A program made the position numbers and the translations under genes. From Apostichopus japonicus (lineage: Eukaryota; Echinodermata; Holothuroidea; Aspidochirotida; Stichopodidae), in contig NC_092575.1 in the NCBI RefSeq assembly GCF_037975245.1, positions 28,419,341-28,483,340 of the forward strand: DNA of 64,000 nucleotides, given 5' to 3'. The notes beneath the pieces were generated by a model. The model did no database searches and was not told the DNA's origin. It was given only the letters and a program-made list of their open reading frames with translations. Positions 17,601 to 52,442 of this stretch are shown piece after piece. How positions within the stretch are numbered: the first letter of the stretch is position 1; each line of letters opens with the position of its first letter.

Positions 17601-20391
17601 GGATTCCTCCTGTAAGTGTTATTTTACATGTTTTAGATTGGATCATGGTTTGTTACGTCGATAATTCTTCCTCCCATTTTTCAGATTAAATTGGCGGAAC
17701 ATGTCTACTCTTGTCTGTTTGGAACATTCCTCTGCAATACAAAGAAAGAAAGGTTGGATTGTGTGGTTCAAGAAAACACTTGTTCCGTCTGGGCCATCTT
17801 ACAAGTGGAAGCCCTCACTAATAAGAACTTTCTGTTTGATCCCAAAACTGATCACGTAAGTCAACCTTTGCTCCAAGAAGTTATAACTCAAGTGTTTAAT
17901 ACTTTTAAGTGGACAGTCTCTGTTAGAACAGGGAAGCACTGTTAGTTTTTGTATGCATGGTTATTGTGCATTATTTCTTGAGTGTGTGATATTATAGCAA
18001 CGAAATGCTGATACGGAGCTGTTTGTTGTACAAATTGTGCCTCAGTTTATGAATAAATTTATAAACTTGTTGACTGGAGGGTTCCTTCTCCTTTGGTTTT
18101 CATGACAGGTACTGCACCCCTCCTGGAATATTTGTGATCTCCATTTCTGGTCGAAGCTGTTTATGTCAGAAAGTTCTCGGTCGGAGGTTGAGGATGGCTC
18201 AACATGGGCACACAGTGAAACGTCAGGGATTGGTAGCCCAAAATTACCCAGAACCCGGTCATTTGATGACATTCACAAAACGGTTTGTGAAGATGGAGAA
18301 AGAAGAGCAAGTTTTGTGGAAACGACTTCATTAGCAAGGACATCCAGCGATCCAAATCTTAGCGATTTGAGGTTAGAAGAATTTGTTGGCACTCCTCCTA
18401 AAGGGACGTACATGATATCATCTACTGAGGTGGAATCAAAGGGAGGCACCCAGGAATCTGATTGGTCAAATGATCAAGTGGAAACTGCTCACAGTGACAA
18501 GAATGAGAAGATAGAATACAAGACAGATGAACAAGGAATACAAGATAGAGCTGAAGATAACAGTAAAATTATGATGCGAGAAGATTCTACGCTTCTCCAG
18601 TCTTTGAGAAGAGAGGAAGTAATACAGGAAATACACATGCAGAGCTCTACGGATACAGTAACCGAGGAGACCCCCCGGGATGCCCCACCTCCTCCAACCC
18701 TGGCGATGTGTAATGGTTATCACAGCGAGGAATTAACAGGAATTGAAGATGGAGATAGAAATCATAATAATTCTGAGAATCATTTAGTACTCAAGAAGAG
18801 TTCAAACATTAGTACTAGCACTAGTGATATTAGTAATTCTCATATCGAATGTCGTAGTCGGAGACTCAGGAATAGGAGCTCAGATCCTAAAGAAGTCACT
18901 CGAGATGCTGAATCGTCTCTAAGAAACTTAAGAATTAAATCCAGTGAATCACATAATCACGTAAGGGTGAAGGACAGGAATGGTTTGTCCACTTCTCCGA
19001 CCAGTTTGTTTAGGTCCAGGTGCTTCTCTGGTCCCAGAAGCCCATCAGACAGAAACTGTCCACTCAGGATAGGGAAACATCTAGATGAAGATGGTTTGAC
19101 CAATATTTCATCAGCTAATCACAGACGACTGGTAGAAATAATGATCATTTCAGAGAATGAGAAGGAGACGTTGAGAGAGGAGATTTTTGAGCTAAGAGAA
19201 CAGCTCAAGCGATGTCAGGTGGATTGTTGGCATGACTACCATGGCCTATCAGACAAGCCTGCAAGCTATGAGGTAAGCATAATAATTATAGGAGATGATC
19301 AACAACTTTATCAATAGAGAATCATGAGAACAGGGGTATGGTCATTATTGTGAATGGTTGCATGACTGGTAAAGGACATCTGACTGGCTTGGTACACATC
19401 CTATAGGACATGTAGTATGTCTGCCAGACTGGTAGAGACATCTGACTGGCTTGGAACACACCACATAGGAAATGTGATATGTCTGCCAGACTAGTAGAGA
19501 CATCTGACTGGCTTGGTACACATCCTATAGGACATGTGGTATGTCTGCCAGACTGGTAGAGACATGACTGGTCTGATAGAGTTGTGGGGAGATATTAGTG
19601 TCAGACTGGTAGAGGACATCTGACCAGTCTGATAGGACTGATAGAAGATATTACTAATAAGGTATGTCTGACATCTGCATTATCCCACTCAAAGCAGTCA
19701 ACTGAAATTAACATTTTAGGCATATATCAAAATGGAATAATGGGTATGTAAAACAGGTGACTTGGAAATGCTATGTAAGTTTTTCTCCTCTGTAATTCCA
19801 GGTTGCTACTAACTTGACTGTAGAAGATGATGAGTTGACGCCTTCCTCTGTACCAAACTCCTTACACTCTGATGCCTCCTGGGAACAACTGGACGATAGA
19901 GATCAAAGCCAGACCCTGTGGGTACCTGACCATGCGGTCACACACTGTCCGTGTGGTCATAAGTTCAACCTGATAACCAGAAGACACCATTGCAGGTAGA
20001 TTGGATACACCTTGTAGAATCACCCCATGTCCCACATCAAACTCGAGCCGAAATGTCCTGGGATGACATGATAATTGTCCTATAGTTTTCATCCCTAGAC
20101 TAGAAGTTCATTTCTAATTTTTGGCAAGCATGCATATTTTGTAACTTAATGATATGTTTGATTATTCTGTTCTCCTGCAGAAACTGTGGACGAATCTTCT
20201 GTGGCACTTGTAGCAATTTTTTCATAGCCATTCCGAGGGAGCAACTTTTCCATCCGCAGCGGGTCTGTTCGCAATGTCACTCATCTCTCGAAGAGCAACA
20301 GCCGCAATCTAGCAGATTGTGTTCTAGTCAAACATCCCTGGATAAGGACGGAAACTTTATGAAAGCGGTAACTGTCATTGGCCAGGGGTGA
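5453..20391 (+). CDS. MTMR3/4-like: Myotubularin-related phosphatase with FYVE domain (MTMR3/MTMR4 type), 14 exons, 5' end missing
   Basis: Phosphoinositide 3-phosphatase, expected to remove the D3 phosphate of PI3P and PI(3,5)P2 on endosomal or autophagic membranes. Exons: 5453-5659, 6703-6782, 10881-11050, 12224-12317, 13902-14015, 14413-14591, 15140-15262, 15754-15865, 16394-16592, 17102-17287, 17685-17855, 18109-19272, 19802-19995, 20181-20391; all junctions are GT-AG and keep frame, giving 1,067 codons then TGA. Counting from the first visible codon: PH-GRAM about 30-150, phosphatase about 190-565 with P-loop HCTDGWDRT (Cys400, Arg406), disordered Ser-rich linker to about 880, coiled coil about 883-915, FYVE 973-1040. 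Similarity to vertebrate MTMR3/4 extends through the whole catalytic domain (LDPYYRT, EWLDFGH, VFLQWLD, YSCLFGTFLCN). The initiator exon is not identified. The cysteine loop is intact, so it is not a dead myotubularin. Confidence 0.95.
7195..7917. repeat. Short-unit minisatellite with internal higher-order duplication, in MTMR intron 2
   Basis: Units of about 15-20 bp built on TAGTATGATCTCCCTG, with variants GATATCC, GGTCTCC and CCCAGTAG. A stretch of about 160 bp (from near 7381) recurs with near identity 314 bp downstream (from near 7695), so a block of units was duplicated together. The minus strand is open for 249 codons because the unit has no stop; this is not taken as a gene. Confidence 0.95.
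9735..9842 (+). repeat. Dispersed ~100-bp repeat, copy 1
   Basis: Begins GGTCTAAGCCTTGTC and contains TTGAATTCCTCGTTTCTG followed by AGAGCTG. A second diverged copy is at 13553-13655. No coding content or tRNA-like boxes; family unknown. Confidence 0.6.
10061..10440 (+). mobile_element. tRNA-derived SINE in MTMR intron
   Basis: The head resembles a tRNA gene: A box around TGGTCAAGTGG (10072) and B box GGTTCGAGCCC (10116-10126), correctly spaced for RNA polymerase III. The body includes TTGGGCAAGGCGCTTTA and ACCCAGGTGTATAAATGG, a central block of a kind seen in many metazoan SINEs. The tail is AT-rich (CAACTTTAACTTTA). The small open frames across it are not genes. Confidence 0.8.
10547..10850. 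repeat. Minisatellite, 48-51-bp unit, ~6 copies, next to an exon acceptor
   Basis: The unit contains GGTTGTAGAGGACTA, TTAATAT, GAGTGTTTGAGTATATAT and TCAA. Early units are about 48 bp; later ones carry a short insertion (CTCAGT). The array ends about 30 bp before the acceptor of the MTMR exon at 10881. Confidence 0.9.
10881..11050 (+). CDS. MTMR exon: end of PH-GRAM
   Basis: Encodes VKFSSDAHCLEW and FFAFCFHAWCFSEKG, matching the end of the MTMR3/4 GRAM domain and the entry to the phosphatase linker. Its acceptor (TTTCTATACAG) sits only about 30 bp after a 48-51-bp minisatellite. Confidence 0.85.
11205..11400. repeat. Diverged direct duplication in MTMR intron 3
   Basis: A block beginning TTGTTGCTGTTAGACCCAT and containing CTTCAGAGTATTATTGTATC occurs twice about 115 bp apart. 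Two copies only, with no coding content. Confidence 0.7.
13553..13655 (+). repeat. Dispersed ~100-bp repeat, copy 2
   Basis: Diverged partner of the block at 9735-9842: it shares GTCTAAGCCTTGTC, then a GTGATGAA..ATTCT segment, then TTGAATTCCTCGTTTCTGGG. Same orientation, in a different intron of the same gene. Confidence 0.6.
16394..16592 (+). CDS. MTMR catalytic exon with CX5R P-loop
   Basis: Encodes NWLSKLESTEWLNHL, then IVIHCTDGWDRTTQVV, then LDPYYRTLE. The P-loop has the nucleophilic Cys, the transition-state Arg and the Asp expected of active myotubularins; Thr replaces the more usual Ser after Cys. The exon ends in phase 0 at GAG|GTTAGC. Confidence 0.95.
16604..16770. repeat. Two-copy tandem duplication after the catalytic exon
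   Basis: A block of about 78 bp containing CATTTATCCCACTT, GAATCTTA and TGTAATCCAGATATGAT is repeated once, starting about 12 bp after the donor of the catalytic exon. Confidence 0.8.
18109..19272 (+). CDS. MTMR large linker exon
   Basis: A 388-codon exon. The first ~20 residues (VLHPSWNICDLHFWSKLF) close the phosphatase domain. The rest is polar, rich in Ser, Glu and Asp and low in hydrophobics, with a Pro patch (DAPPPPTLA); it is predicted disordered, as in MTMR3/4. The end (ENEKETLREEIFELREQLK) is a heptad-like coiled coil, which in this family supports dimerisation. Donor GAG|GTAAGC. Confidence 0.9.
19379..19640. repeat. Short tandem array, ~61-bp unit, ~3.5 copies
   Basis: The unit contains CTGACTGGCTTGG, CACATCCTATAGGACATG and GTCTGCCAGACTGGTAGAG. 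The last copies degenerate. It lies in the intron between the coiled-coil exon and the FYVE exons. Confidence 0.85.
19802..20391 (+). CDS. MTMR FYVE zinc finger, two exons
   Basis: Exons 19802-19995 and 20181-20391. All three FYVE signatures are present: WVPD, the basic RRHHCR patch that contacts PI3P, and RVC near the end, with eight zinc-ligand cysteines in CxxC pairs. The intron interrupts the last Arg codon of RRHHCR. After FYVE the protein ends with a short tail, so FYVE is nearly C-terminal as in MTMR3/4. Confidence 0.95.
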
Positions 20392-26900: not shown

Positions 26901-28124
26901 TTTTTCATAGATATAACTTCGATAACTATTCATAATTATGTGTCGCAATTCCAGGATAAATCAACAAGAAGCTTATGAATGGAAAGTAAAACGAGTTAGA
27001 TAGATGTAGGAGATAAACTGAAAAGGGAAAAGAGAAGATTAGGGGGGGGGGGGGTAGGGAATAAGAAGGACGAAGACAGGCAACTGTGTTCCCTAGCGAG
27101 GCGTTGCCCCTGAACTCCACCCGACCCTAAAGCGCCGTCTGGTCCCCACGCCTTCTGGGGGAGCGCGGCCCGCGCTTCTGCGGCCCCTTATGCGCCATTG
27201 TAACCTGAAACCCCAAGGCATATGTTGGAATCCCTCAGCTCCGAGAAATAAAAGTCTAGCTATGCCCTGAGTTACTTACAACATTAATGTAATATCCTGT
27301 CCATGCCATTTCGATTAAGCAACATCCAAAGAAATAAAACCACGCCCTGGGATTCTTGAGAACAAACACCCAAACATCTGACCATTTCTTCGTTCTACCC
27401 TCGTGCTCATATAACGGAGTTCCCTCCTCATTCTTTCGTTTCACCTTTTTCCCGCTGCTTGAAAGTTTCTGTGCAATGGTTTGTCCGTCTTCAGATGATT
27501 TATGTTTAGTCAATTCGCAATAATCGTATTTTCTTGATTCTGTATCAACTTCGCCAGAAATCGTTCTTTGAGGATTTTTCAGATTTTCCTGGCCGTCAGC
27601 TCTCAGAAGGCAGTCTTTTTCGACATTTCCATTGGTAGATAGATGCTCGGGTGGTTTTATCAAGTAGGCAGCCGGTAGACAAAAAAACACAACAATACCT
27701 GATAAAACCTGGAAAGTTTCCTGCCAGCCAATAGTCGTTAGACAAAACTGGACGAACGTACTTAGTAATAGTTGACCTGAAACAGAAAGACAGCATGTAA
27801 TTATAAAACAAATAGTTGCGTTCTTTTCATTCGGAAATGACGTAATTATTTTCCACTCCCACTAGATACTAACACCATGAGGTATTTATTCCGTCCAGAT
27901 ATGTGCAGAAGCTTCACAAGTTAACAACAATCACAGTAACAATTCCCGTATTATTCATATTATGATAATAATCATAAATATAACCAGCAGTTTACTTTTC
28001 GACGCTTAAGCGACCACAAATGTGGGAGAAATCCGCAAGGGCTTATGGGTTACAAACTCACACGTTGGGTGGCTTCCAATTGAACAATTTAACTCATATG
28101 CATGATATACGCTAGGTAAATCTG

Positions 28125-28175
<51 letters not shown>

Positions 28176-31100
28176 TGTGTGTGCGTGTGTGTATGTGTGT
28201 GTGTGGGGGGGGGGGGGGGTTGTGTGCGTGTGTCTGTGTGTGTGGTGGTCTCTTCTGTCATACCTTCAAACGACTGAAGAGAGAGACTAACTTACCAAAT
28301 GATGTTCCGCTCCCAGCTATTAGAGTTCGATAACTGACCTGCGCTGGAAAGTGTAGAAGTATCACACAAGTGCCAGCATAGAAGATAAGGTTAACGCCAA
28401 CTCCATACAGAATACCAAACAGCACATACAGGTGGATGACGTGTGTCGCAAAGGAGGATAAGAGGAGGCAAGCGGCTGTGATTAATACCCCAGAGAGGAT
28501 GGTTGTTTGATAACCAAATAGTAGGGCTACAATGGTGGCAATAGGGCAAGATAGCTTGGCTGATGCCATGGCCAATGAACCAACCATACCTGCAGTTAAG
28601 GACGAAGAATAATATAAAAGTCCAGTACTTTCAGAATGCGGCCAGATTTTTTTATCTATATATGGTTTAAAGCACATATGCATCATCACAATATACTATT
28701 ATCTTAATAAAACGTTTATTATTATTGTGTGATAGTCTGGTACATTTTCTAGTTCTGGGCTGAGTGATCAACTTGTCAAGTCCACAAGGGTTTCTTACAG
28801 ATGGTGTTACATTCACTTCCATTACCTCCTTTCAATTTCACGTCGTATCTTTCTGTCTATGATGTGACTCTATTAGAGGTTCAATGTTCCAGAATGACTC
28901 GTCAGTCTATTTAACATGTTCTCATTTGTGTTTGTTTTATTCGGCCTCAGCCTGTAGAAGACCCTCTTACTTTATACACAGTGGCGTTGGAAGGTACTTT
29001 TGGGTGGGGGGGGGGGGGCTGAAGACTGATGGCCGGCCTGGGGCAGGGGTCTAAGGGGAGGGGGTGTCCCCCTCCCCTTTGGATTTTTTTTGCATTTCCA
29101 GGTGGCCTCAGATGCAATTTGGTGCAATATAGCACACTTCAACACCCACTCCATTTTGTAAATAATTTTGCATTTTCACCTGGCCTTAGATGCAATTTGG
29201 TACTCCAAATGAGATTTTTTTCTCATTTGGAAATGAAAAAGGGGTTTTCTAACCTGTGAAGCGGGGGGGGGGGGCGGAATGATACTTCCGCCCCTCCATA
29301 TTTTTCACTGGGGGCTGGCGCCCCCCGCCCCCCGGTTCCTACGCCCTTGTTTATACATGTTCTTAATACTGCACGTATGTGCTCATAACATTATTTTACG
29401 AAAGCTGTGAATCGAGACAATTTACTAGACTTATCCTATTGTACTGAGACATGGTGAGGAAATGGGGGACCGCGACCTGGGCGGTGTTTTATCCTAGTCC
29501 ACTCAGCATACACGTATTTCACTGTCTAAAACTAAGCCAAAACTAGAACAACTGTCACAGTGTGACAGTGTCACTTGTCATTTAGCCTCTGAAGAAGATC
29601 CTGCTAGGATCGAAACGTCAGGCCAACTTACTTTTACACATTCTATTACACAGGCTCTCTAGTGGATAAGCAGTTTGCTAACAGGTTTAATTTATTTTGA
29701 TTTATATCTATTTATGTACGACTTTACACAGTTACACTACGTTAAATAGCCCTATACACAACTGCAGTCAGACTAAGATGTGTTGTATCTTACATCAATT
29801 CACTGCGTTGTTGACACTGTAAAGTTATCCCTGTGTATTAATTGTCACTGTGTCGATGATATCACAGGGCGTTCCGCTACACGGCGCGCAGGCTGCACCC
29901 GAGTTGCTACACTCCTAATAATCTTTTGTAAGAATCAATTATGTATATATTACTGGGCTACTAAGGTCCATTTGTATATATTTTAAAATGTCGTATCATT
30001 GTACGAGGAGCTTTGCTACTGACACTTGGTTACCATCTCCGTAAAGTAATAACTTTATGCAAACTCTCTTCAGGTACACCGAGCTCTCGAAGACATGTTT
30101 ACAGTGACGAGACATGGATGCAATGTTAATTATATACAACTGATATTATTAGTTTAGGTACTATAAAGGCATGTCATTGTAGTGTTTGAGACAGTACCGT
30201 GGTTCGTACCGTGTATGGTCATCAAGACATGTACAATACAATCAAAGGCATGACAAATCTAGCATCATTTACCACACCATGAACACACCATCCAAATGCA
30301 ACACAAAACTCATATGGAAGCACATAACTTGAGGCATTAACATTTGGCAGAATTTACCAACACCATGAAAGCACCATCCATATTCAACACAAAACTCATA
30401 TGGAAGCACATAACTTGAGGAATTTACATTTGGCAGAATTTACCAACACCATGAAAACACCATCCATATGCAATACAAAACTCATATGGAAGTACACAAC
30501 TTGAGGCATTTACATTTGGCAGAATTTACCAACACTACGAGCACACCATCCAGATGCAACACAAAACTCATATGGAAGTACACAACTTGAGGCTTTTTTA
30601 TTTGGCAGAATTTACCAACACCATGAACACACCATCCAGATGCAACACAAAACTCATATGGAAGTACACAACTTGAGGCTTTTTTATTTGGCAGAATTTA
30701 CCAACACCATGAACACACCATCCAGATGCAACACAAAACTCATATGGAAGTACACAACTTGAGGCTTTTTTATTTGGCAGAATTTACCAACACCATGAAC
30801 ACACCATCCAGATGCAACACAAAACTCATATGGAAGTACACAACTTGAGGCTTTTTTATTTGGCAGAATTTACCAACACCATGAACACGCCATCCAGATG
30901 CAACACAAAACTCATATGGAAGTACACAACTTGAAGCTTTTTTATTTGGCAGAATTTACCAACACTACGAACACACCATCCAGATGCAACACAAAACTCA
31001 TATGGAAGTACACAATTTGAGGCATTTACGATGTCAAACAAGGCTGCATTGTGTTTCCTGCTGTCGAACATATGTCATTCTCATATGAAGTTATTTTGCA

Positions 31101-36150: not shown

Positions 36151-36664
36151 GTAACAAACAGCAATAACAACAAACAAACACACAACCATGATGCTTTAAA
36201 TATTCATCCCAGGATACTTGTATTATCACACTCTTATGTTATTTCAAATAGCGCTTAACGCTGTGGAAATTAGTAGCGCAAGTGCAGGAGTTGATTAAGC
36301 AGTCTAGTTTTAGAATCATCAAACAAGTCCGCCCCTTTTATTACTCATTCTTCGGATGAAAAACTTTTATTTTAAGTTTTGAGTATTTTGAGTATTTAGT
36401 ATTTTTATCGTTTATATAACGATCTTTCCAAGGATCATTCTTATTGCATGCAGTCAATGGTTATTCAATGGACGCGTATATTATCAATTAGCCGTATTCG
36501 CAATTTCACACTGAACTTAGTAACGGTTGTCCAATCTCCGGTTAATTTGTTCGCCGAATATATGCTCAACTAATGTTTTCGGGTCAAATTGGTTAGTTAC
36601 TTTTTTCTGAATCATGTTTTCCGACTACTGCACCATTGATTATTACACCTCCATGTGTCTCCGT

Positions 36665-37970
36665 CACTTCAGCAGTCAGTCTTTGATCAGAGAGTCTCAA
36701 TATGGCTTTTGTCAAAAAAGGTCTTGTCTCACTAATATCCTTGAGTTTATGGAAGATGTAACAAGCTCACTAAATAGGCAGAGGTCTGTAGATGTTGTGT
36801 TCCTGGATTTCCAGAAGGCCTTTGATAAAGTTCCCCACCAGCGTCTTTTACTTAGGCTGAAGAGCATGGGTGTCATAGGGAATTTACTGTCTTGGATCGG
36901 GAATTGGCTTGGTAATAGGGAACAGAGGGTGGTAATTAATGGCTGTGCTTCTTCTTGGCAGAACGTTACTAGTGGGGTTCCACAAGGGTCTGTATTAGGT
37001 CCCCTGTTGTTTGTTGCCTATATAAATGACATCGACGGAGATATTTTGTGTACAGCTAAGAAGTTTGCTGATGACACCAAATTGTATTCTGAGGTCTCTT
37101 CCAAAAGCGATTCTGAGAAATTTCAAACGGATTTAGATATGATTTTTTCCTGGTCTCAGGGGTGGCAAATGCTTTTTAATATTGATAAATGTAAGGTAAT
37201 GCACATTGGTAGTAGTAACCAAAAGTTTACATACAATCTAAATGGTGTGGAGTTACAGGAGGTCTCTGTTGAAAGAGACCTAGGTATCTACATTGACTCG
37301 TCTCTGCAACCTTCCAAACATTGTCTTGAAGCTGCTAAAAGAGGTAATAGGGTTTAGGTATGATCAAGAGGAACTTCAGTTTTCTGAAAGAGGACATCGT
37401 AGTTAGGCTTTATAAGCAGTTGGTTAGGCCTCATCTGGAGTATGCTGTGCAGGCTTGGAACCCTTATTTTGCTAAGGATAAGGAAGTACTTGAAAAGGTC
37501 CAGAGGAGGGCTACTAGGATGATTAGTTCCTTAAAGAGGGTTCCTTATTATAGGCGGTTACAACTGTTGAATCTCACCACACTGGAGCTTAGGAGGTTAC
37601 GTGGGGACTTGATCCAGGTTTTCAAGATTGTGTATGGTTTCGACAATTTATCTTTTACCGACTTTTTCATGTTTGCAAACAGTAGTTGTACTAGAGGTCA
37701 TTGTCTTACACTTCAAAAGTCGCATAGTAGGATTAATATTCGGCATAACTTTTTTTTCTAATAGGGTTGTGAATGAGTGGAATGGTTTGCCTGAGAAAGT
37801 TGTACTTGCAAGTAGTGTCAATGGGTTTAAGCATGCTTTGGACAAGCACTTTAAGCATTGTAATCGGGTCTGAGTGTTTGTGTCTTCAGTTTTTCCCTCT
37901 CTTTATAGGGTCCTTGTTGGGGACTTAAGTGTCCCTCCTGATCCTTTTTTCTACTAAACTAAACTAAACT
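36665..37970 (+). pseudogene. 5'-truncated, frameshifted LINE reverse transcriptase (CR1/L2-like)
   Basis: Encodes RT motifs in order: SQYGFCQKRSC (finger), VFLDFQKAFDKVPH with the first catalytic Asp, SGVPQGSVLGPLLF, and FADDTKLY (the YADD box as FADD), then a CR1-style C-terminal region (LVRPHLEYAVQAWNPY, KVQRRATRMI, NEWNGLPEKVV). The endonuclease domain and N-terminal RT are missing. A one-base loss near 37356 and an extra T in a T run near 37757 break the frame, so it is dead. Stop at 37871. The 3' end has a short ACTAAACTAAACTAAACT tail (37953-37970), as in LINEs with microsatellite-like tails. Confidence 0.9.
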
Positions 37971-42436: not shown

Positions 42437-44461
42437 TTTGATATTGAAAACTGTGGCATACTAACTATAACATATTATTTTGACACTAAATTAGCCAGTA
42501 ATGACCACATGCTGTAATTAGTACTAGTTGTATCATCCAATCAGTGTCTCCTGATCATGCTACTCTTCAGTTTTTCTTCTTCCTTATCCAAGAGTTGAGT
42601 AACCCTGATGTTGAAAACTGTGGCATACTAACTATAACATATAAATTTGACACTTAATTAGCCAGTAATGATCACATCCACATGCTGTAATTAGTACTAG
42701 TTGTATCATCCAATCAGTGTCTCCTAATCATGCTACTCTTCAGTTTTTCTTCTTCCTTATCCAAGAGTTGAGTAACCCTGATGTTGAAAACTGTGGCATA
42801 CTAACTATAACATATAAATTTGACACTTAATTAGCCAGTAATGACCACATCCACATGCTGTAATTAGTACTAGTTGTATCATCCAATCAGTGTCTCCTAA
42901 TCATGCTACTCTTCAGTTTTTCTTCTTCCTTATCCAAGAGTTGAGTAACCCTGATGTTGAAAACTGTGACATACTAACTGTAACATATTGATTTGACACT
43001 AAATTAGCCAGTAATGACCACATGCTGTAATTAGTACTAGTTGTATCATCCAATCAGTGTCTCCTGATCATGCTACTCATCAGTTTTTCTTCTTCCTTAT
43101 CCAAGAGTTGAGTAACCCTGATGTTGAAAACTGTGGCATACTAACTGTAACATATTGATTTGACACTAAATTAGCCAGTAATGACCACATACTGTAGTAA
43201 GTACTTGTTGTATCATGATCCAATCAGTGTCTCCTGATCATGCTACTCTTCAGTTTTTCTACCTCCTCATCCAAGAGTTGAGTAACCCTGATGTTGAAAA
43301 CTGTGGCATACTAACTGTAACATATTGATTTGACACTAAATTAGCCAGTAATGACCACATACTGTAGTAAGTACTTGTTGTATCATGATCCAATCAGTGT
43401 CTCCTGATCATGCTACTCTTCAGTTTTTCTACTTCCTTATCCAAGAGTTGAGTAACCCTGATGTTGAAACTGTGGCATACTAACTGTAACATATTAATTT
43501 GACACTAAATTAGCCAGTAATGACCACATACTGTAGTAAGTACTTGTTGTATCATCCAATCAGTGTCTCCTAATCATGCTACTCTGCAGTTTTTCTTCTT
43601 CCTTATCCAAGAGTTGAGTAACCCTGATGTTGAAACTGTGGCATACTAACTGTAACATATTGATTTGACACTAAATTAGCCAGTAATGACCACATGCTGT
43701 AATTAGTACTAGTTGTATCATCCAATCAGTGTCTCCTGATCATGCTACTCATCAGTTTTTCTTCTGCCTTATCCAAGAGTTGAGTAACCCTGATGTTGAA
43801 AACTGTGGCATACTAACTGTAACATATTGATTTGACACTAAATTAGCCAGTAATGACCACATACTGTAGTAAGTACTTGTTGTATCATGATCCAATCAGT
43901 GTCTCCTGATCATGCTACTCTTCAGTTTTTCTTCTTCCTTATCCAAGAGTTGAGTAACCCTGATGTTGAAACTGTGGCATACTAACTGTAACATATTAAT
44001 TTGACACTAAATTAGCCAGTAATGACCACATACTGTAGTAAGTACTTGTTGTATCATCCAATCAGTGTCTCCTAATCATGCTACTCTTCAGTTTTTCTAC
44101 TTCCTTATCCAAGAGTTGAGTAACCCTGATGTTGAAACTGTGGCATACTAGCTATAACATATTAATTTGACACTAAATTAGCTAGTAATGACCACATACT
44201 GTAGTAAGTACTTGTTGTATCATGATCCAATCAGTGTCTCCTGATCATGCTACTCTTCAGTTTTTCTACCTCCTCATCCAAGAGTTGAGTAACCCTGATG
44301 TTGAAAACTGTGGCATACTAACTATAACATATTAATTTGACACTAAATTAGCTAGTAATGACCACATACTGTAGTAAGTACTTGTTGTATCATCCAATCA
44401 GTGTCTCCTGATCATGCTACTCTTCAGTTTTTCTACCTCCTCATCCAAGAGTTGAGTAACC
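42437..44461 (-). repeat. Tandem array of ~12 units (167-173 bp) derived from the terminal exon and 3' UTR of the TIR-HEAT gene
   Basis: The unit boundary CCCTGATG recurs at about 167-173-bp steps from 42603 to 44460. The unit nearest the gene is the real end of its last exon. Each other unit keeps, on the minus strand, a CAG followed by the same 64-nt coding tail and stop, varying in sequence (LLDKEEEKL, LLDKEVEKL, LLDEEVEKL) but, where I checked, not in length. Indels (for example CATCC versus CATGATCC) lie just beyond the stop. See findings. Confidence 0.9.
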
Positions 44462-45259
44462 CTGATGGATTCCTTGGCCAGTGGACTGTCCATTATCCTC
44501 AAGGCTGTCAGGGCCGCATTCCTCACGTTTGAGATGATATCATTTCTCCTGCAGGGAAACAAAACGTTTGTCATTCAGGGTAAAATAACTGATCCACCAA
44601 CACAAACATAACCCTGTGCCCTCTTGGTAAGATAACTGTCTAGTCAATTGTTTAGGCTCGGTATACACATGATTTAGTGTTCATTACTTCCATCTTCTGC
44701 CTTTAAATTAAAAGCATTTTGCCACGATTATGGAGTATGACAAAGGAGTGCACCATCCTACCTACCAGATGTCCACCAGCAATGGGATTGCTTGAGAAGA
44801 TTTCAGGTGACCCAAAGACAAACAGGATGCCTCTCTCACCATTCTGTCATCATCTTTTAATTTAGCCATTAGGGTTTTGATCACCCTCTGGTTTGTTGTA
44901 CCTAAAAAAAAAAAAAAAAAAAAATATGGGAGAAAGAGCAGGAATTAGTTTTATGTGTTGGTTCTCCCTTTGTAGAAATGTCAAGAATGTTATATTGATT
45001 GACTATTTGGACTTCAGAACATTGTTAACAGCAATCTATGTTTCATTTCATGAGCACAATTTGCATATATGCATTATTACCTACAAGGATCCAGTACTGT
45101 ATACAACTTGAGGATAGAATGATAACTACAGCCCATGAATCAAGTTTGATATTTTACCTGTTTTTCCAATCGCAATGGCTGCCACAGTCCTGATGTTGGC
45201 ATCTTTATCTGTTAAGAGGCTTTTCAAAACACCAACTACAGATGCAGTCTGAAATTGAC
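44398..45259 (-). CDS. HEAT-repeat exons (5-7)
   Basis: Exons 45259-45158, 44901-44766 and 44548-44398. Each encodes about one short HEAT repeat with the D-x-x-V/I-R-x-x-A/E pattern, roughly one repeat per exon. The basic tail MIRRH precedes TGA. Confidence 0.85.
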
Positions 45260-48200
45260 CTGAAGATAAGATAAGAGACAACATACCAATTTGAATTGTT
45301 ATATTTGGAGAAAGGGTTAATCGGAGAGGTGGTTAGAGTTCTCTTAAGCTTACTGGGAAATGGAACAGAAACTGATATGTATGCAAGATGAATATTGAAT
45401 GAACAAAACTAACAAATATGGTTATCATATTAGTGTCAATGTAGATGTATTTTATATTTAGTGTTCACCGTACTTGTTCTGCTACTTTTGTACACATTGT
45501 GCAAAATTTGGACATAGCAAGAGTGACCAAAGAATTATTGGCTAAATGAAACCTAATGCAACTGCTGGTATCATTCAAATTACACATTTTGTTTCTGTTT
45601 TGTATGGCAGGCATAAAACTTTGCTAATGGTTGATAAATTGATACTGGAATCTACTATACAATTATTTATCTTATTTGTAAATGCATGATTACTTGGTAC
45701 GTGCTGTACATAATTGCTTCTTCTTCCACTTTCTTTGGAATGATGCATAGTACAACTGATACTCTGTGAAGTCACATTTTGGCTATCTTGTTTCGTAAGT
45801 CCCTAGTATATAAACATTTTTAGCAGAAATAAACGTTTGGAGCCTGAACCAGATTTGCAAGGCTTGATTGTGGGTGGTCATAGTTTCATTTAGTTTACTG
45901 TGGGTATTGCTCAATAAGTTGATGCTCCCATAAGGATAGGTTTGATCATGGCCTATTAATATTATTACAAATTTATTATAATATTAACAGGTGGAAGCCA
46001 TACATTTGTGATAACTAACTAATTTTATATGATTAAGTAAGCCTGTAGGCTTTAACTATAGTTTGATTGGTGTGTTTGTTAAAGTTGAATTTGCTATCAA
46101 TAATAACTCCAAGAACAGCAGCTTCAGGGATGGAAAAAGGTTCTCATAAAGTATAATTTGATAATTATCAGTATTCCTGACGCTGAAGACGAGTCGATAA
46201 AAATCATCAGTAATGTCAAGGCTTTACTAAAGAAGGTTTAGAACAGATCCTTACTGAGTTCCAGCACTGAATGTAAAAGGATCAGATGTCTGACATTGAA
46301 GCTTATCTTCAATTTGCAATCTTTCAGGTAAGAGGATAGCAGTAATATGTAATTGACTTCATGAGAGTTAAGTAGTGATGTTAAATGTGCCTGATGAATG
46401 ACGACTGCACAAAGTCATTGCCAATAAAAAGAAACAAATTGTTAGGCACTTCATTTTTCAAACAATAGAATGAGTAATTCAAAGGAAATCTTGTCCCAGC
46501 AATGAATTCCATACTCTTAACATGAGTTATAGATTATTCATATATGCTGTTTTGAAACTTATATGACATATTTTTGAGAACCAGAGATTTCAGTCTTAAG
46601 AAAAGCTTACCTAGGTTGTTTATGGCAATAAGTCTAACTGTGCTGTCCATGTGGAATATTTCTTTCATAGCAATCTTTCCTCTGGCATAGTCCATGACTT
46701 GATGGTAGAACCTATCACAATCTCCTTCCAATTTGGCACCGCCGCCACAAAACGACACATACAAACGCTTGGGAAATGTCTTCTTCAGTGATAAGATTTC
46801 TCCATAGATCAAATTAATAATCCAGGATACTTTATCTTCTGGCATTTGCATCAAAATCCTCTCCTTGTAGCTACTCAAAAAGGCAGCTCGAAATTCAGTC
46901 CAGGGAATTTCAGTTTTGTCTTTGAAGTTCTTTTCCCAGAAATCTGGAATTCCTTTCTTCTTTTCTTTCATCATCGACAGCCTTACTCTCTCTCTCCATC
47001 TGTTGCAGGTCATAGGATCTGCAGCACCTGACGATTCCAGCTCTCGCATCATGCTGGAAGGTACTTCAACCATGGATGACCTTGGTGATCTGGAATCTGT
47101 TACATCGTGGGATAGCACCTTGAAAATGGATTTCACCAGCACAGGTAAGAACTCCTCACTGTAAGCACCATTTTGATCCACTTGAAAGAAACTCCAGTTG
47201 AGTTTTGCCACGATAAGTTTCCTACAATGAATCAGTGTGATAACAATGAAAATATGAAGTTTAGGTGGCCAAAAAAAAAAAATTAATGGGAACCTTATTT
47301 CCCATTCCCCCAAAATTTAGGTAATAGATCAAGCAGCCTTTACAACATGAATGATAAACTCTTTATAACTTAAGCACCTGCTTGTGCTACTAACACTGTC
47401 ATACTATGCATCATTTGAGTTATCACACAGCTATGACATCATATTCACAAATTTCCTTGTAGATAATACTTACCATTAACTCTGTTAACAACAGTAAGTA
47501 GATGGTAGGATGATCAATAGAGGAATTACCCATAAGACATGACTTACATCAATAGCTATGGCCAGCAAAAGTCCTAAGGTCATTTGCTTCATTAAATACA
47601 AACTGAAATTTATCTGGACATCTAGTTGCCAACTCAATGAGATATATATAAATTAACATAGAAAGTGAAGGATGGGATAACTCATTCTATTGCAATCTTT
47701 TGGGCACATTCATGAACTTTCTGCACAACTGCTATATGATTGGAATCTGTACATGACGGGCTACCATTACACAGTTAAAGTAACATCAACAAGCAAGGAT
47801 GGAACACTTAGCAAACAGACTTGTGTTCAGAGAGCACAGATGATCACAGAAGACACCTTCTGGTTTAAGAAATGCAGTGGATGGTTCCACTATTGTTGCC
47901 AACATGATCTCTACTTTCTGAAGTTGCTGAAGGTTAATATGGATTACCAGCATACATCTACTTCAGCCAGATGACTAGTGTCAGTGTTACACACCTTTAA
48001 AGTCTAATGAAGGCTAGCAGATATGTATTGTACAAGTAAGTGAACAATGGAAAACTTACTGGGAAATAATATACAATGGAAAAGAGCAAGGACATTTATG
48101 GTTAGAAATAGGAATCGAACCAGCGACCTCTAGATGACCTCTAGATGACAAGCCCAGGACTCTACCAACTGAGTTATCTAACCCTATAGTTGGTGGTGAT

Positions 48201-51200
48201 CTCTACATATCCATTTATTTGCTGGAGGGGGGAGGGAGGGGGGCAACCATGTAACCAGGGATCCCACCCCAGGTTGACTCTAGACAACCCACAAGGCGGC
48301 ACAGAAAGGATGTCAGGAGAAAAATCACCTTTTAATTAATTTAGTAAATCAATAACTAAGAACTGACAGGAAAATTATAAATGGAAACGAGCCAAGCAAC
48401 TTATGGCTACAATGGGATTCGAATCAGTGACCCGAAGAAATATGATTGACTCTGCTGACCACCGGATGACCGTTACAAATTTGTCATGCATCAGCACATC
48501 TATTTAGGTCAGTGAAAATAAATCAACAGAGGTTTTTATACCCTTCAATTCTTCATAAAAAGTTATGGGTACTTTATACCAGGTTAATTGAAACTGGAAT
48601 GTGGAGTCTGACAAGTTCCATTTACCCTTAATATATTTGTATCTACAGGTAGGCTAGTATCTTAGCTTTGAATAAACTTTCACAAACATAGCATATTTTC
48701 CTGCCCTAAGCTAATGGGACACACACCATACCTGACCATATATGCCTAAGGGTGCTTAAATTACACTAGATCCGGATCAGATACCCTGATGTTATCAGAC
48801 AATCATCTCTCCATGGGGTAAACTTTGATCCGGACGCATGTACACTTGAGTTGAACTCTAATCCTCTCCTGCTATTCACCAGATGTTGGTAAAAAATTGG
48901 ATTGTAAATGTGTCATGCGCAGCTGCGGATCGTGTAGTACGAATACTCTGAAAAATTTCGTTGCCATGGTGTACAGCCTTAGGGAGACACAACTACGCTA
49001 TGCACGGCCCACATGCACCCAATCTACGTCAGAATTAGCACGTGCATGATACAGGACTGGAATTTCACACAAGAATACATGTGATGTAATGCGGTCACCG
49101 GATATCTCTTGTCACTGTTGATGCGGAAGTGTTTACATTGCAAAATTGATCTTGACGCCCGGATCAGATCCTGGTCTCTGCAAGCATCAAATAGGAGGAT
49201 CAGATCCGGATCTGAACTGTTTTTACACTACGTGATCCCGAAATAAAACAGTTGAGTAAAACACATTAGATACACCATCTCAACAATTGTCCGCCCCGCC
49301 TGGACTAGCTAACTTGATCTGTCCTTTATCTTCACCATTTCACATTCATTGGCCTGTGTGTACATTCCAGTAGAAAGCATCAAGATACTTAGGAAGCTTT
49401 TACACTAGATACAGATCACGGCTGTAGTATGTATACCCAGTTCAGATCTGGATCTGATCCTCCTATTTTGATGCTGGCAGTGACCAGGATCTTATCCAGA
49501 TGTCGGATCAAGTTTGCAATGTAAACACTCCCATACATAACTGAAAATATTAGCTTCCTAAATGGAAAAGGTAACGAATAATGTTCTTTGTGACAAACAA
49601 AAAATAGTCAACGATATCACTGTGTCAGAAATCAACTAGTGACAAACTATAAGTGAATTTAATATTAAAACTATCTGACCAAAGACCAAAAAGAAATTTG
49701 TTAAGTCCTTGCTTGGAGATTGAAGGCCATACATTTAAACAAGTTTGTAAAGGAGCAACATATTGCTAAAAGCATCATCATAGTGTTAGTTTATTCTTCA
49801 ATCACAGACAGTTAAAGAGGTCACAGAAATAGGTGGCGCTACAAATGAATATAAAAATTTAAAATAACTATGTGCGATAGCAAAACTGAATTTTCCCTGC
49901 CCAAAAGCTTTTTCACATGGTCTATTTCACATCCGTTCCTTCAGGAAAAACTGTAGATTTTAAAGGGTAAAAAAGCAAAGTACATACAATGAAAAATCCA
50001 GAGCTGCCTCCATTAGCTTATAGTCATGCACAGTGACTGGAAAGATGGGCTTGTCTGAGATATAAGCCAGGGCAACTTCATCATTCAGAGACTTAGAGCC
50101 AATCGAATCCAAGCTCAGAACAACCAGAATTACCTGTAAATCATGAGAAGGGGTGACTTTACAGTACACTTACACTTTACAGTACACTTAACAGAGCACT
50201 TTAAAGGGCACTTTACAGTACACCTTCAATACAAAATAACTGCAATTTACCTAGTAAAAAACCTTATGCATACTGCATTACCAGCATCATGAACTTTGCT
50301 AAATATGCAATCATGAACAAATTAAAAACAGCCTTGGGTTTGTTCTTGTTTATACAGCTGTTGCAATTTGTTGGATATTTCTGGTACACGTTATCAGAAG
50401 GATTTGTAATTCAATGTACTAAGAATGTTAGCATGTACCACTGGGCATTGAAAGTAGTTTGTTGTGTCTGGGTCACAATTTAAAAAGAACATTATTTTGA
50501 TATTACACCAAATTATATCGCAATGTAATTCATTAACACACCAACCTAGATATATATAAACCAATATTAAAAAAAAAAGAAGGAAATACAGAATCAATCA
50601 AGTCAATGACTATGACTTGAGTCAGACAAGCTATTGCCAAAGACTTGACTAGATCTTAAAATGACATTTTTTTTACCTAATGAAAGTAAAGAAGGAAATA
50701 ACAAATGAGCCAATTTGGTTGTTGCCTAAACAGTTTTACATGTAGCACTGTATATGAATCACACGTAAAGATGCAAATTGGAAAATAATATATTTGTTAT
50801 ATTTGTTATTTCTTCTTTATTACTTGATTATGATTACCAGTCAAGTTGATGACATACATTGTTATGGAATTTTTATTCAGAATTATTAAATTGATCAAAA
50901 TCACTCAGAGAAGCTGAATTCATGAATGTATTCAATTGCTCACTTGGTATAGTAATAAATTTACAGAAAAATTAATTCTGAATTTGTTAATATGATACAA
51001 CATCGGTGAGTAGAAATTGTTTCTGTGGGAAGTGAATAATGCTATATTATGCAGTTTTGTCAGTAAACCTATGCAAAGTCATATATTATGTGTAATAATA
51101 AACTGAATGTCTCATGTTGCTGATGCTAAAACCACATGTGACAATCCATTATCCTAGCCAATAATGAATTGGCCAACACTGGTTTAGAAGTGTAAGTCTG

Positions 51201-52442
51201 TACTATTTATGGAAGCAATGTTTTTATTTTGACTATCGTAACAGCATAAGTAATGGACATATTTACCATGTTGTGTTAAGTTTGATAGTGGGTGTCATAC
51301 TGCAAGCTAATCCACTAATCTATACCTCATGAGAAAGATGACTTACCTTAGCCTCTAGGAGAGCAATACCTTTCTCTTCACCCTTTGCTAGATCATTATG
51401 CCAGATGGAAAAGCCATGCTCTTGAAGCTTCCCTAGAAGATGAAAACTGATACAGTTAATTCATAAATCATGTGTACAATATGGTTACGTTGAAATTAAT
51501 ACACACTCTTTCTCTCTCCTTCTTATACATAGAGGAATACAATTCTTTTTGACTTTGATGTTAATTACTAAGGGGTTAATCAACGGTCTAGCGTGCGTTA
51601 CTCACAGGATTAATGCACGATCGGGGGATAATGCAAGCGATGCACGAGGGCGGAGCCCGAGTGCATCCAGCGATAGCATTAACACCCGGAGTGCATTAAT
51701 CATGTGAGTAACGCACGCTAGACCGTTGATTAACCCCATTCATTCATACACTACCATTTGTGTGGGGGAAAAATGATAAAACAAAACTTTTTTGGTTACA
51801 TATAACCAAAGATTTATTAAAGTGATGCCCCGTAATTTTATCGTGCGTTACTCACAGGATTAACCACGGTCAGCTGACCTGAATGGACCAATAGGATTTA
51901 GGAATCTTTACTAAGTATGAATGAATATATACTTAATGCTAACTTGAAAACCAATCTTCCACAAATCCTCTGTTATGCACAGTACAAAGAAAGTAAAATA
52001 TTATACCAAAGTAGGAATGTTGATGGTTTTCAATTTAATATGATCATGCTAAATTGCTAATGATGAAGTGAAAACTGATGGCTTACTACCACAGAGAGCT
52101 TCAACATATCTCTCACATCATGTGACAGAATGAAAAGATGTGATCAGCAGAAAGTTCATAACGACATCAGAGTGACATTATCATGCTACAACATGCCTGC
52201 CTATTCCTTAACAACATTTTCATTGTTGGTTGAGTTTTGTTCCAATTTCATGGGACATTCAACATTAAGGACTGAAAAGTTTTACACTGGTTTGAACACA
52301 CTATGTCTTGATTTTAATGTGCAATACAGTAGTCTTTCCCATTGTTGACTTTAATCTTACCAGATATGAAATTAACAAATGATTCATCCTTCTTGATGTG
52401 GCAGAGAAAGACATCTGCCCCAGTGTTAGCAACTTGTGCCAT
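44398..52442 (-). CDS. TIR - EF-hand-like - HEAT repeat protein, 7 exons, complete
   Basis: Exons in transcript order: 52442-52361, 51432-51347, 50133-49988, 47221-46611, 45259-45158, 44901-44766, 44548-44398. All junctions are GT-AG and in phase; 1,314 nt encode 437 aa. The ATG (AACATGG) has an in-frame stop upstream. Residues 8-105 form a TIR domain: ADVFLCH strand A, HGFSIWHND at the BB loop, KVILVVLSLDS, NDEVALAY with Glu75 where SARM1-type TIR NADases have the catalytic Glu, and PIFPVTV. Residues 199-217 (FWEKNF..KTEIPW..FRAA) closely resemble the EF-hand-like domain of Cbl. Residues 295-425 contain four HEAT-type repeats (STVRLIAINNLG, ANIRTVAAIAIG, RMVREASCLSLG, SNVRNAALTALR). Likely a cytosolic signalling or immune protein; the order is the reverse of SARM1 (ARM-SAM-TIR). 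I know no named orthologue. Confidence 0.85.
44903..44925. repeat. Poly-A/T run at an exon acceptor
   Basis: A run of about 20 A on the plus strand (T on the minus) forms the polypyrimidine tract directly before the acceptor of HEAT exon 6. Confidence 0.8.
46611..47221 (-). CDS. Central exon with Cbl-like EF-hand motif
   Basis: 611-nt exon encoding residues 106-308. It holds the end of the TIR domain, a Ser-rich linker (about 140-190), the FW-x-K-x-F..KT..PW..FR motif (46888-46941) and the lead into the first HEAT repeat. Acceptor TTGTAG at 47222, donor CTAG|GTAAGC at 46611. Confidence 0.85.
48095..48195 (-). mobile_element. tRNA-like sequence (SINE head or tRNA pseudogene)
   Basis: On the minus strand: GGGTTAGATAACTCAGTTGG, then GTAGAGTCCTGGGCTTG, then GGTTCGATTCCTATTTC and a closing TAACC. 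A and B boxes are intact, and the ends pair like an acceptor stem. GATGACCTCTA is duplicated between anticodon arm and T arm, which would disrupt a working tRNA. A degenerate second B-box-like site (CTGATTCGAATCCC, minus) lies near 48412-48426. Confidence 0.6.
49129..49529. repeat. Inverted repeat, ~91-bp arms
   Basis: The arm at 49129-49219 (starting AGTGTTTACATTGC, ending GGATCTGAACTG) is the diverged reverse complement of 49438-49529. Both contain GATCAGATCCTGGTC-type and GGAGGATCAGATC-type blocks. A related GATCCGGATCAGATACC piece is near 48769. It is probably a DNA transposon pair or one element with long inverted ends, in the largest intron of the TIR-HEAT gene. Confidence 0.7.
49988..52442 (-). 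CDS. TIR-domain exons (1-3) of the TIR-HEAT gene
   Basis: Exons 52442-52361, 51432-51347 and 50133-49988 encode residues 1-105. Exon 1 supplies strand A, exon 2 helix A to the BB loop and the next helix (GEEKGIALLEAK), exon 3 strands C-D with the candidate catalytic Glu. An acceptor-like TTTTTACAG at about 52526 suggests the first coding exon begins there, with an upstream non-coding exon; a 14-codon upstream ORF then precedes the main ATG. Confidence 0.8.
51572..51737. mobile_element. Foldback element, 47-bp inverted arms with one mismatch
   Basis: The left arm starts GGGGTTAATCAACGGTCTAG and the right arm ends CTAGACCGTTGATTAACCCC; the arms match over 47 bp except one base. The centre also pairs (GATGCACGAGGGC with GCCCGAGTGCATC), so nearly all 166 bp can form one hairpin. 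A lone arm segment (GTGCGTTACTCACAGGATTA) recurs at 51843-51864. Confidence 0.9.

Follow-up and report, generated by a model that had tools for sequence, protein, structure and literature searches.

The window, i.e. the entire stretch of 64,000 nucleotides from Apostichopus japonicus that was analysed, harbours on its minus strand a gene of seven exons for a predicted protein of 437 amino acids, in which an N-terminal TIR domain is followed by a candidate EF-hand-like block and by C-terminal HEAT repeats (Table 1). The analysis confirmed this locus as a real animal gene, with an exon chain that was read in silico. All introns (6/6) are of the GT-AG type, their phases match in each case and the frame stays open to the stop, in line with the initial annotation, which had proposed this uninterrupted model. 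An in-frame TGA can be read off the sequence 18 nt 5' of the ATG. Coding-frame scoring placed the frame of the model at the top of the six frames in all seven exons, with thin margins in exon 1 (-0.03 versus -0.08) and exon 7 (-0.06 versus -0.09). The joined coding sequence scored 0.02 versus a mean of -0.36 and a maximum of -0.06 in a best-of-six null obtained from 1237 pieces of 600 nt, a comparison which penalises stops and is hence largely an open-frame test. At its 3' end the gene runs into a tandem array, the last unit of which holds the 70 bp that close exon 7; these bases (82-151 of the exon) recur in 11 more copies downstream of the gene, which are 92.9-100% identical.

Table 1. Features of the TIR-HEAT locus (positions are those of the window).
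Feature	Position	Strand	Content	Basis
167-bp tandem array, 12 copies	42439..44467			repeat search
Exon 7	44398..44548	-	aa 388-437 and stop; HEAT, C-terminal tail	splice sites/phases, Pfam
Exon 6	44766..44901	-	aa 343-388; HEAT	splice sites/phases, Pfam
Exon 5	45158..45259	-	aa 309-343; 102 bp, phases 1-1, about one HEAT repeat	splice sites, Pfam, PDB matches
Exon 4	46611..47221	-	aa 105-309; likely TIR end, linker, Cbl-type EF-hand-like block, HEAT start	
Cbl_N2-like EF-hand-like segment	46864..46956	-	aa 194-224	Pfam; paralogue above cut-off at same place
Exon 3	49988..50133	-	aa 57-105; TIR third strand, Glu75 region	splice sites/phases, alignments
Glu75 codon	50077..50079	-	catalytic-Glu column of TIR NADases	position by hand count
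Exon 2	51347..51432	-	aa 28-56; TIR second strand, shortened BB-loop/alpha-B	splice sites/phases, paralogue alignment
Exon 1	52361..52442	-	aa 1-28; start codon, TIR first strand and start of first helix	splice sites/phases, Pfam

The profile check which the initial annotation had suggested for TIR and HEAT gave matches above the Pfam cut-offs for TIR_2 at aa 11-117 (E 8.8e-9, 36.3 bits, cut-off 28) and, in the C-terminal part, for HEAT_2 (E 1.6e-20, 73.6 bits, cut-off 27.7) and HEAT (39 bits, cut-off 23.5). A weak Arm match across the HEAT part stays below its threshold (13.3 bits, cut-off 20.6). Matches to HEAT-type PDB chains begin at aa 276-298, and about four repeats can be read by eye in the stack. 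The middle block resembles Cbl_N2, the EF-hand-like domain of Cbl, with scores under the cut-off of 22 both in the whole protein (19 bits) and for exon 4 alone (19.9 bits, E 0.0011); the match covers 31 of 84 profile positions (33 of 84 in the paralogue described below), and Cbl chains in the PDB reach E values of only 0.6 and 0.14 with the two proteins. In a single-sequence fold of exon 4 (mean pLDDT 38.3), a helix-loop-helix spans the Cbl-like segment, with too little confidence to be used as evidence. Exons 1-3 alone score 38.4 bits with TIR_2, slightly above the value for the whole protein, and the match extends into exon 4 without gain in score. The link between TIR and HEAT is therefore not credited to exon 4 alone. 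The proposed order of TIR, EF-hand-like block and HEAT was thus recovered with Pfam, with Cbl_N2 under the cut-off here. Neither a SAM domain, the absence of which had been noted before, nor a death domain was matched in the protein by Pfam at E values up to 10. The protein would be located in the cytosol.

Another gene with this layout lies at G000:C7:16311993-16333131 on the minus strand, with nine exons, GT-AG introns and 409 amino acids (hereafter the C7 paralogue). The two proteins are 32% identical across 432 columns (E 2.5e-73), and in the C7 paralogue all three Pfam profiles pass their cut-offs (TIR_2 89.8 bits over the full length, Cbl_N2 23.7 with a cut-off of 22, HEAT_2 60.2). The TIR of the window protein hence scores lower than that of its paralogue, and its HEAT_2 part scores higher. 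By hand comparison, five of the six introns of the window gene are common to both genes in position and phase; in the C7 paralogue the counterpart of exon 4 is split by three further introns and one HEAT intron is missing. This agreement, together with the same domain order on another contig and an alignment over nearly the full length, indicates that the window gene is more than a product of chance. The exon at C7:16318196-16318326, which came out of a splice and similarity scan and has the right phases, completes the TIR profile, and with this match to exon 4 of the window gene the TIR_2 score climbs from 81.0 to 89.8 bits. A rival exon at region 18608, ranked higher in that scan (score 46 versus 33), was rejected as a repeat, since its sequence recurs inverted at region 16106; this choice is a judgement. 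Genome searches at E <= 0.01 with the window protein (22 candidates scored) and with the C7 protein minus its exon 4 (21 candidates) gave 11 matches each, all of them in these two loci, and the window gene is one of two family members detected in this genome. Over 397 codons the pair has a dN of 0.64 versus a saturated dS of approximately 3.1, values which describe both lineages together and not the window copy alone.

With regard to SARM1, the human TIR found only C15:10298405-10299483 in this genome (2/2 matches, 66% and 47% identity). This TIR is preceded by a SAM frame (SAM_2, 4.4e-11) and by a 443-aa ARM frame that matches SARM1 chains of the PDB (best 1.9e-87), both upstream of it. As judged from these predicted ARM, SAM and TIR pieces, the genome's own SARM1 is a separate locus at approximately 10.298-10.334 Mb of contig C15. 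The window gene is no orthologue of SARM1, the best genome copy being the C15 locus, and Pfam does not recover the SARM1 layout of N-terminal ARM, two SAM and C-terminal TIR in its product. The reversed order that had been postulated relative to SARM1, with TIR first and HEAT last, was borne out by the same profiles. Among PDB chains, a profile built from the two TIRs matched bacterial TIRs best, AbTIR among them (1.5e-7), followed by SARM1 (1e-5), a TLR15/TLR2 chain (7.5e-5), MyD88 (0.048) and TLR1 (0.24). The description of this TIR as SARM1-like is consequently loose: the profile has bacterial TIRs, for instance AbTIR, ahead of SARM1 and the TLR chain close behind it, and the genome has a SARM1 of its own. 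The profile may lean toward an enzymatic ancestry, though only modestly, because the TLR15/TLR2 chain is almost as near as SARM1.

The window protein combines a TIR with an alpha-solenoid and is neither SARM1 nor TLR, which places it among the orphan TIRs. Orphan animal TIRs with Armadillo-type folds are already published, and judged by the passages cited here the window gene is a variant on these. Aplysia has ARM-TIR genes, 11 in the table and 10 in the text of the source, which were defined by strict (IPR000157+IPR000225) or relaxed (IPR035897+IPR016024) criteria (PMC9334734), and a figure legend lists the ARM-TIR category for oyster as well (PMC4346834). A TIR_2 scan of the sea cucumber genome gave at least 35 matches (54 candidates scored); the window gene and the C7 paralogue are absent from them, presumably as a consequence of the division of their TIRs among several exons. 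Seven TIR_2 matches on contig C9 (23.38-23.80 Mb) point to several TLR-like genes; three of these matches were read by eye, and LRR-like repeats are present in two of the three. Bacterial or viral relatives of the whole protein were confirmed neither among three pattern matches in IMG/VR nor among 23 in GTDB contigs, by a short-peptide scan that finds close relatives only, and plasmids gave none by tblastn at E <= 1e-5.

Glu75 is correctly numbered. In alignment and profile it falls into the column of the SARM1 catalytic glutamate (WVHKE), which we take to be E642 and used as anchor for the SARM1 numbering, and into that of the AbTIR glutamate, presumably the catalytic one. The placement at the catalytic position therefore stands, as a matter of sequence. 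The window TIR and SARM1 are 26% identical, and pocket residues were mapped by sequence alignment, not structure. Compared to the C7 paralogue, the BB-loop/alpha-B region is six residues shorter, and SARM1 E596, K597 and L598 lie opposite a gap. All six gaps are inside exon 2, by which a missed micro-exon or splicing artefact was ruled out. Furthermore, the column of the ligand-binding Trp falls into a gap of the window protein in the SARM1 alignment, residue spacing puts Ser71 at Glu minus 4 (a weak match, E 0.16), and Trp is absent from the window protein between residues 39 and 113. The C7 TIR looks canonical, with a full BB loop of approximately SARM1 length and Y-C before K-D-E, versus S71-L72 in the window protein; the surroundings of the glutamate are kept (D-E-V-A-L-A-Y versus D-E-L-A-L-A-Y). 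According to a legend in PMC7075850, W71 and E75 of SARM1 bind the ligand, the Trp sitting four residues before the Glu. Taking Glu75 as a sign of catalysis was overstated, as passages of the same survey report this Glu for >70% of all TIRs, >90% of TLR1/2/6/10 and <10% of MyD88, and regard it as no predictor of catalysis by itself, being common to TIRs without reported activity (PMC7075850).

On balance, we give slightly better than even weight to the reading that the window TIR has diverged into a scaffold whose catalysis is probably weak or absent, within a family of two genes in which the C7 TIR is canonical. The HEAT and EF-hand-like parts may serve as a sensor of some state or as the site where a partner binds; the TIR would act by assembly with other TIRs, perhaps including the C7 sister, which would make the protein an adaptor, modulator or pseudo-enzyme. 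We infer TIR assembly and a loss of catalysis for the window copy. This copy more probably than not lacks strong NADase activity of its own, because the BB-loop/alpha-B region is eroded and the aromatic residue before Glu75 is missing; NADase activity as such is possible, more so for the C7 paralogue. It appears distinctly unlikely that both genes constitute an undescribed TIR-EF-hand-HEAT family with an enzymatic C7 member and a pseudo-enzyme in the window, whose calcium- or partner-sensing arm would control mixed TIR assembly and an NAD signal.

SARM1 has an ARM array larger than about four repeats, and this bears on the initial annotation's own reading, an active TIR NADase gated by a C-terminal HEAT solenoid as a mirror image of SARM1. 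We regard this reading as unlikely, but worth consideration. The catalytic-column glutamate, a TIR profile that bacterial TIRs match best, among them the NAD(+) hydrolase AbTIR, with SARM1 next, and the intact loop and Y-C-K-D-E of the paralogue are consistent with it, whereas the six lost residues, the missing aromatic at Glu minus 4, a glutamate shared with TIRs without reported activity (PMC7075850), the small HEAT stack and the lack of a SAM match in the Pfam list argue against. It would be premature to label the window protein a SARM1-like enzyme. There is only a small probability for a TLR-pathway adaptor or decoy, as hypothesised for ecTIR-DC proteins, that acts only by binding receptor TIRs: the genome has several TLR-like genes, as on contig C9, and there is a TLR chain among the matches of the TIR profile, but MyD88 and TLR1 match poorly and no death domain is in the Pfam list. 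Such a role overlaps the preferred scaffold reading, the sole difference being the partner. A decaying copy, either pseudogene or unexpressed gene, is very improbable, since pocket erosion, the low TIR_2 score and the minisatellite in the terminal exon would fit, but every splice site and all 437 codons are intact, dN of the pair, though not of the window copy alone, is well under dS, and the HEAT part outscores that of the paralogue.

As it stands, the finding overturns nothing established. A 2020 survey names SARM1, in the passage cited, as the only metazoan TIR with known NADase activity (PMC7075850). If the preferred reading is true, a family with intact and eroded pockets would offer a natural comparison of the TIR features needed for NAD cleavage, and the position of its solenoid, opposite to that in SARM1, would allow asking whether a TIR can be gated from its C-terminal side.

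Compared to known systems, SARM1/TIR-1, the ARM-SAM-SAM-TIR NADase, likewise joins a TIR to an alpha-solenoid and has the catalytic-column Glu, whereas the window protein has the reversed order, HEAT instead of ARM, an EF-hand-like module, no SAM found, a shortened BB loop and no Trp ahead of the Glu. Among solved TIRs, the bacterial AbTIR, 7uxr and Cat1 come closest in the sequence profile. AbTIR shares with the window TIR a spacing of 12 residues between the strand-C serine and the Glu (hand count), but has a Trp at Glu minus 4 where the window TIR has Ser, and six residues are missing from the window TIR ahead of strand C (gaps of 2, 3 and 1). The ARM-TIR proteins of Aplysia and oyster are, as here, cases of alpha-solenoid plus TIR outside SARM1, with ARM instead of HEAT. 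The layout of ecTIR-DC 6 (ARM, Death, TIR; PMC6836662) differs from that of the window protein. For the other ARM-TIR and ecTIR-DC proteins the cited passages give neither the domain order nor an EF-hand-like module, and the likeness to the window protein lies in the pairing of TIR and alpha-solenoid. The closest counterpart in domain order is the C7 paralogue, with the same succession of TIR, Cbl_N2-like EF-hand-like block and HEAT.

The seven-exon chain, which the initial annotation had drawn by eye, was reproduced by script: all six introns are GT-AG, the phases agree and in silico splicing gives a single open frame of 437 residues. A codon-usage score trained on three open frames nearby put the model frame first of six in every exon, by a narrow margin in exons 1 and 7. 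For the spliced coding sequence the score was 0.02 against a best-of-six null with mean -0.36 and maximum -0.06 (1237 random 600-nt pieces), although this comparison is largely an open-frame test because the score penalises stops. A 167-bp minisatellite of 12 units (42439-44467) begins within the last exon, and the last 70 bp of coding sequence have 11 further downstream copies with 92.9-100% identity.

The proposed order, TIR first and HEAT last, is borne out by Pfam, with TIR_2 at residues 11-117 (8.8e-9) and C-terminal HEAT repeats (HEAT_2 1.6e-20, HEAT 5.4e-10). In the central EF-hand-like block, residues 194-224 match the EF-hand-like domain of Cbl, but below threshold. Among the ten Pfam families matched there is neither a SAM nor a death domain, in line with the claimed absence of SAM. 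In the PDB, the HEAT part matched synthetic HEAT-type proteins, best a synthetic fusion (1.1e-40), followed by alphaRep proteins. Exon 4 holds the Cbl-like segment and the HEAT start, and the TIR_2 match extends 13 residues into it. However, exon 4 alone is no proof of the TIR-HEAT link in this copy, because exons 1-3 alone outscore the whole protein for TIR_2 (38.4 vs 36.3 bits). The predicted fold of exon 4 alone is of low confidence (pLDDT 38.3). Support for the TIR-HEAT link comes from the splice phases and a second gene.

This second gene was found when the protein was searched against its own assembly (671.6 Mb, 35 contigs; E <= 0.01; 22 candidates scored), which returned two places only, the window with 9 of 11 matches and contig C7 with the other two. 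The C7 gene, modelled from 30 kb around the match, encodes a protein 32% identical to that of the window gene (432 alignment columns, E 2.5e-73), the identities being distributed as 46/127 in the TIR, 4/30 in the linker, 24/90 in the EF-hand-like and 66/150 in the HEAT segment. TIR_2 spans the full profile (2.4e-25), HEAT_2 reaches 2.5e-16 and Cbl_N2, the EF-hand-like domain of Cbl, scores 23.7 bits against a cut-off of 22; Cbl chains in the PDB were matched weakly (best E 0.14). Searching back with the C7 protein, its exon 4 left out, returned only the same two loci (8/11 and 3/11 matches). By manual comparison, five of the six window-gene introns have a counterpart in the C7 gene at the same position and in the same phase. 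The region of window exon 4 is split by three extra introns in the C7 gene, which lacks one intron of the HEAT part. Pairwise dN is 0.64 and dS about 3.1 (saturated), values that describe both lineages jointly. The shared layout, alignment and introns show that the architecture is inherited and no chance join.

Coordinates of the modelled exons, the second gene and the SARM1 frames (exons in window positions)
Feature	Position	Strand	Remark
Exon 1	52442-52361	minus	scripted rebuild
Exon 2	51432-51347	minus	scripted rebuild
Exon 3	50133-49988	minus	scripted rebuild
Exon 4	47221-46611	minus	scripted rebuild
Exon 5	45259-45158	minus	scripted rebuild
Exon 6	44901-44766	minus	scripted rebuild
Exon 7	44548-44398	minus	scripted rebuild
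C7 gene	C7:16,311,993-16,333,131	minus	nine-exon model, 8/8 introns GT-AG, 409 aa
SAM frame	C15:10,301,668-10,301,985	same as SARM1 TIR	upstream; SAM_2 4.4e-11
443-aa ARM frame	C15:10,332,341-10,333,669	same as SARM1 TIR	upstream; matches ARM part of SARM1 chains, best 1.9e-87

Glu75 lies opposite the catalytic glutamate of SARM1 (BLASTP and local alignment, 25/96 columns identical; score equalled or beaten in 2 of 2000 shuffles), and a profile of the window and C7 TIRs places the same column on the catalytic glutamate of AbTIR and on 7uxr. Hence the proposed position holds, but it does not by itself predict an active enzyme, since a TIR survey states that the glutamate does not necessarily track activity and occurs in this column in >70% of all TIRs and >90% in TLR1/2/6/10 (PMC7075850). 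There, the SARM1 ligand is bound by both W71 and E75 in the survey's numbering. In the window protein the residue at Glu minus 4 is Ser71, and residues 39 to 113 contain no Trp; around the glutamate the C7 protein reads R-Y-C-K-D-E. Furthermore, six C7 residues have no counterpart between Trp38 and Ala51, and as this gap falls within exon 2, it is a feature of the genome sequence and no artefact of the model. SARM1 E596, K597 and L598 align to the gap, in a numbering anchored on E642.

Against solved TIRs, the two-TIR profile ranked 7uwg (4e-8; aligned letters identical to AbTIR), AbTIR 8g83 (1.5e-7), 7uxr (1.3e-6), Cat1 (7.1e-6) and SARM1 (1e-5) ahead of MyD88 (0.048) and TLR1 (0.24), with a TLR15/TLR2 chain near SARM1 (7.5e-5). 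Because bacterial TIRs and SARM1 precede MyD88 and TLR1, we lean modestly to the view that the family may be of NADase-type descent, with the window copy eroded. Given the damaged pocket, this copy would most likely serve as an adaptor, modulator or pseudo-enzyme, perhaps in relation to the C7 protein; the HEAT/EF-hand-like arm of the window protein would dock to a partner and its TIR would join TIR assemblies. The rival reading, an active NADase gated by HEAT, is less likely for this copy; we would rate it higher for the C7 gene.

A SARM1 or rearranged SARM1 copy is ruled out, as the genome's SARM1 sits at a separate locus. The human SARM1 TIR found one place, C15:10,298,405-10,299,483, in two pieces (66% and 47% identity), on the window's own contig at a distance of about 18 Mb. 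On domain content, the locus C15:10298405-10333669, read as separate TIR, SAM and ARM frames with intervening exons unjoined, is the genome's SARM1.

Elsewhere in the assembly, C9 carries seven TIR_2 matches at 23.38-23.80 Mb (L006, L007, L008), four in open frames of 1041-1058 aa; three loci were inspected by eye and in two of them LRR-like repeats precede the TIR, which indicates a TLR cluster. C13 has seven matches and C16 four; the one locus read among them, L002 (C13:25676341-25679571), is a different TIR type (VFISYQWDHQ, SENCNKE), likewise without Trp at Glu minus 4. The window also holds myotubularin-related phosphatase exons (16383-16616 and 17075-17347) and a FYVE finger (20104-20388), all on the plus strand and presumably MTMR3/4-like, MFS-type transporter exons (27259-28695, minus strand, both frames under the Pfam cut-off) and a reverse transcriptase frame (36611-37354, RVT_1 7.2e-28), LINE-type by reading.

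IPR016024 takes in HEAT as well as ARM. The literature describes 11 ARM-TIR genes in the table (10 in the text) and 17 orphan TIR genes in Aplysia (PMC9334734), an ARM-TIR class in oyster (PMC4346834), TIR with ARM domains in choanoflagellates (PMC6040629), and ecTIR-DC families that apparently have no vertebrate members, are widespread in invertebrates and are hypothesised adaptors or regulators (PMC6321704, PMC6836662). The combination of TIR and Armadillo-type fold is thus already known. A protein with precisely the order TIR, Cbl-type EF-hand-like, HEAT was not found in our search of open-licence full text, seen in part; it may already be described in Gerdol et al. 2017, the most probable source. 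With its TIR joined to an Armadillo-type fold, the window protein resembles the published orphan invertebrate TIRs.
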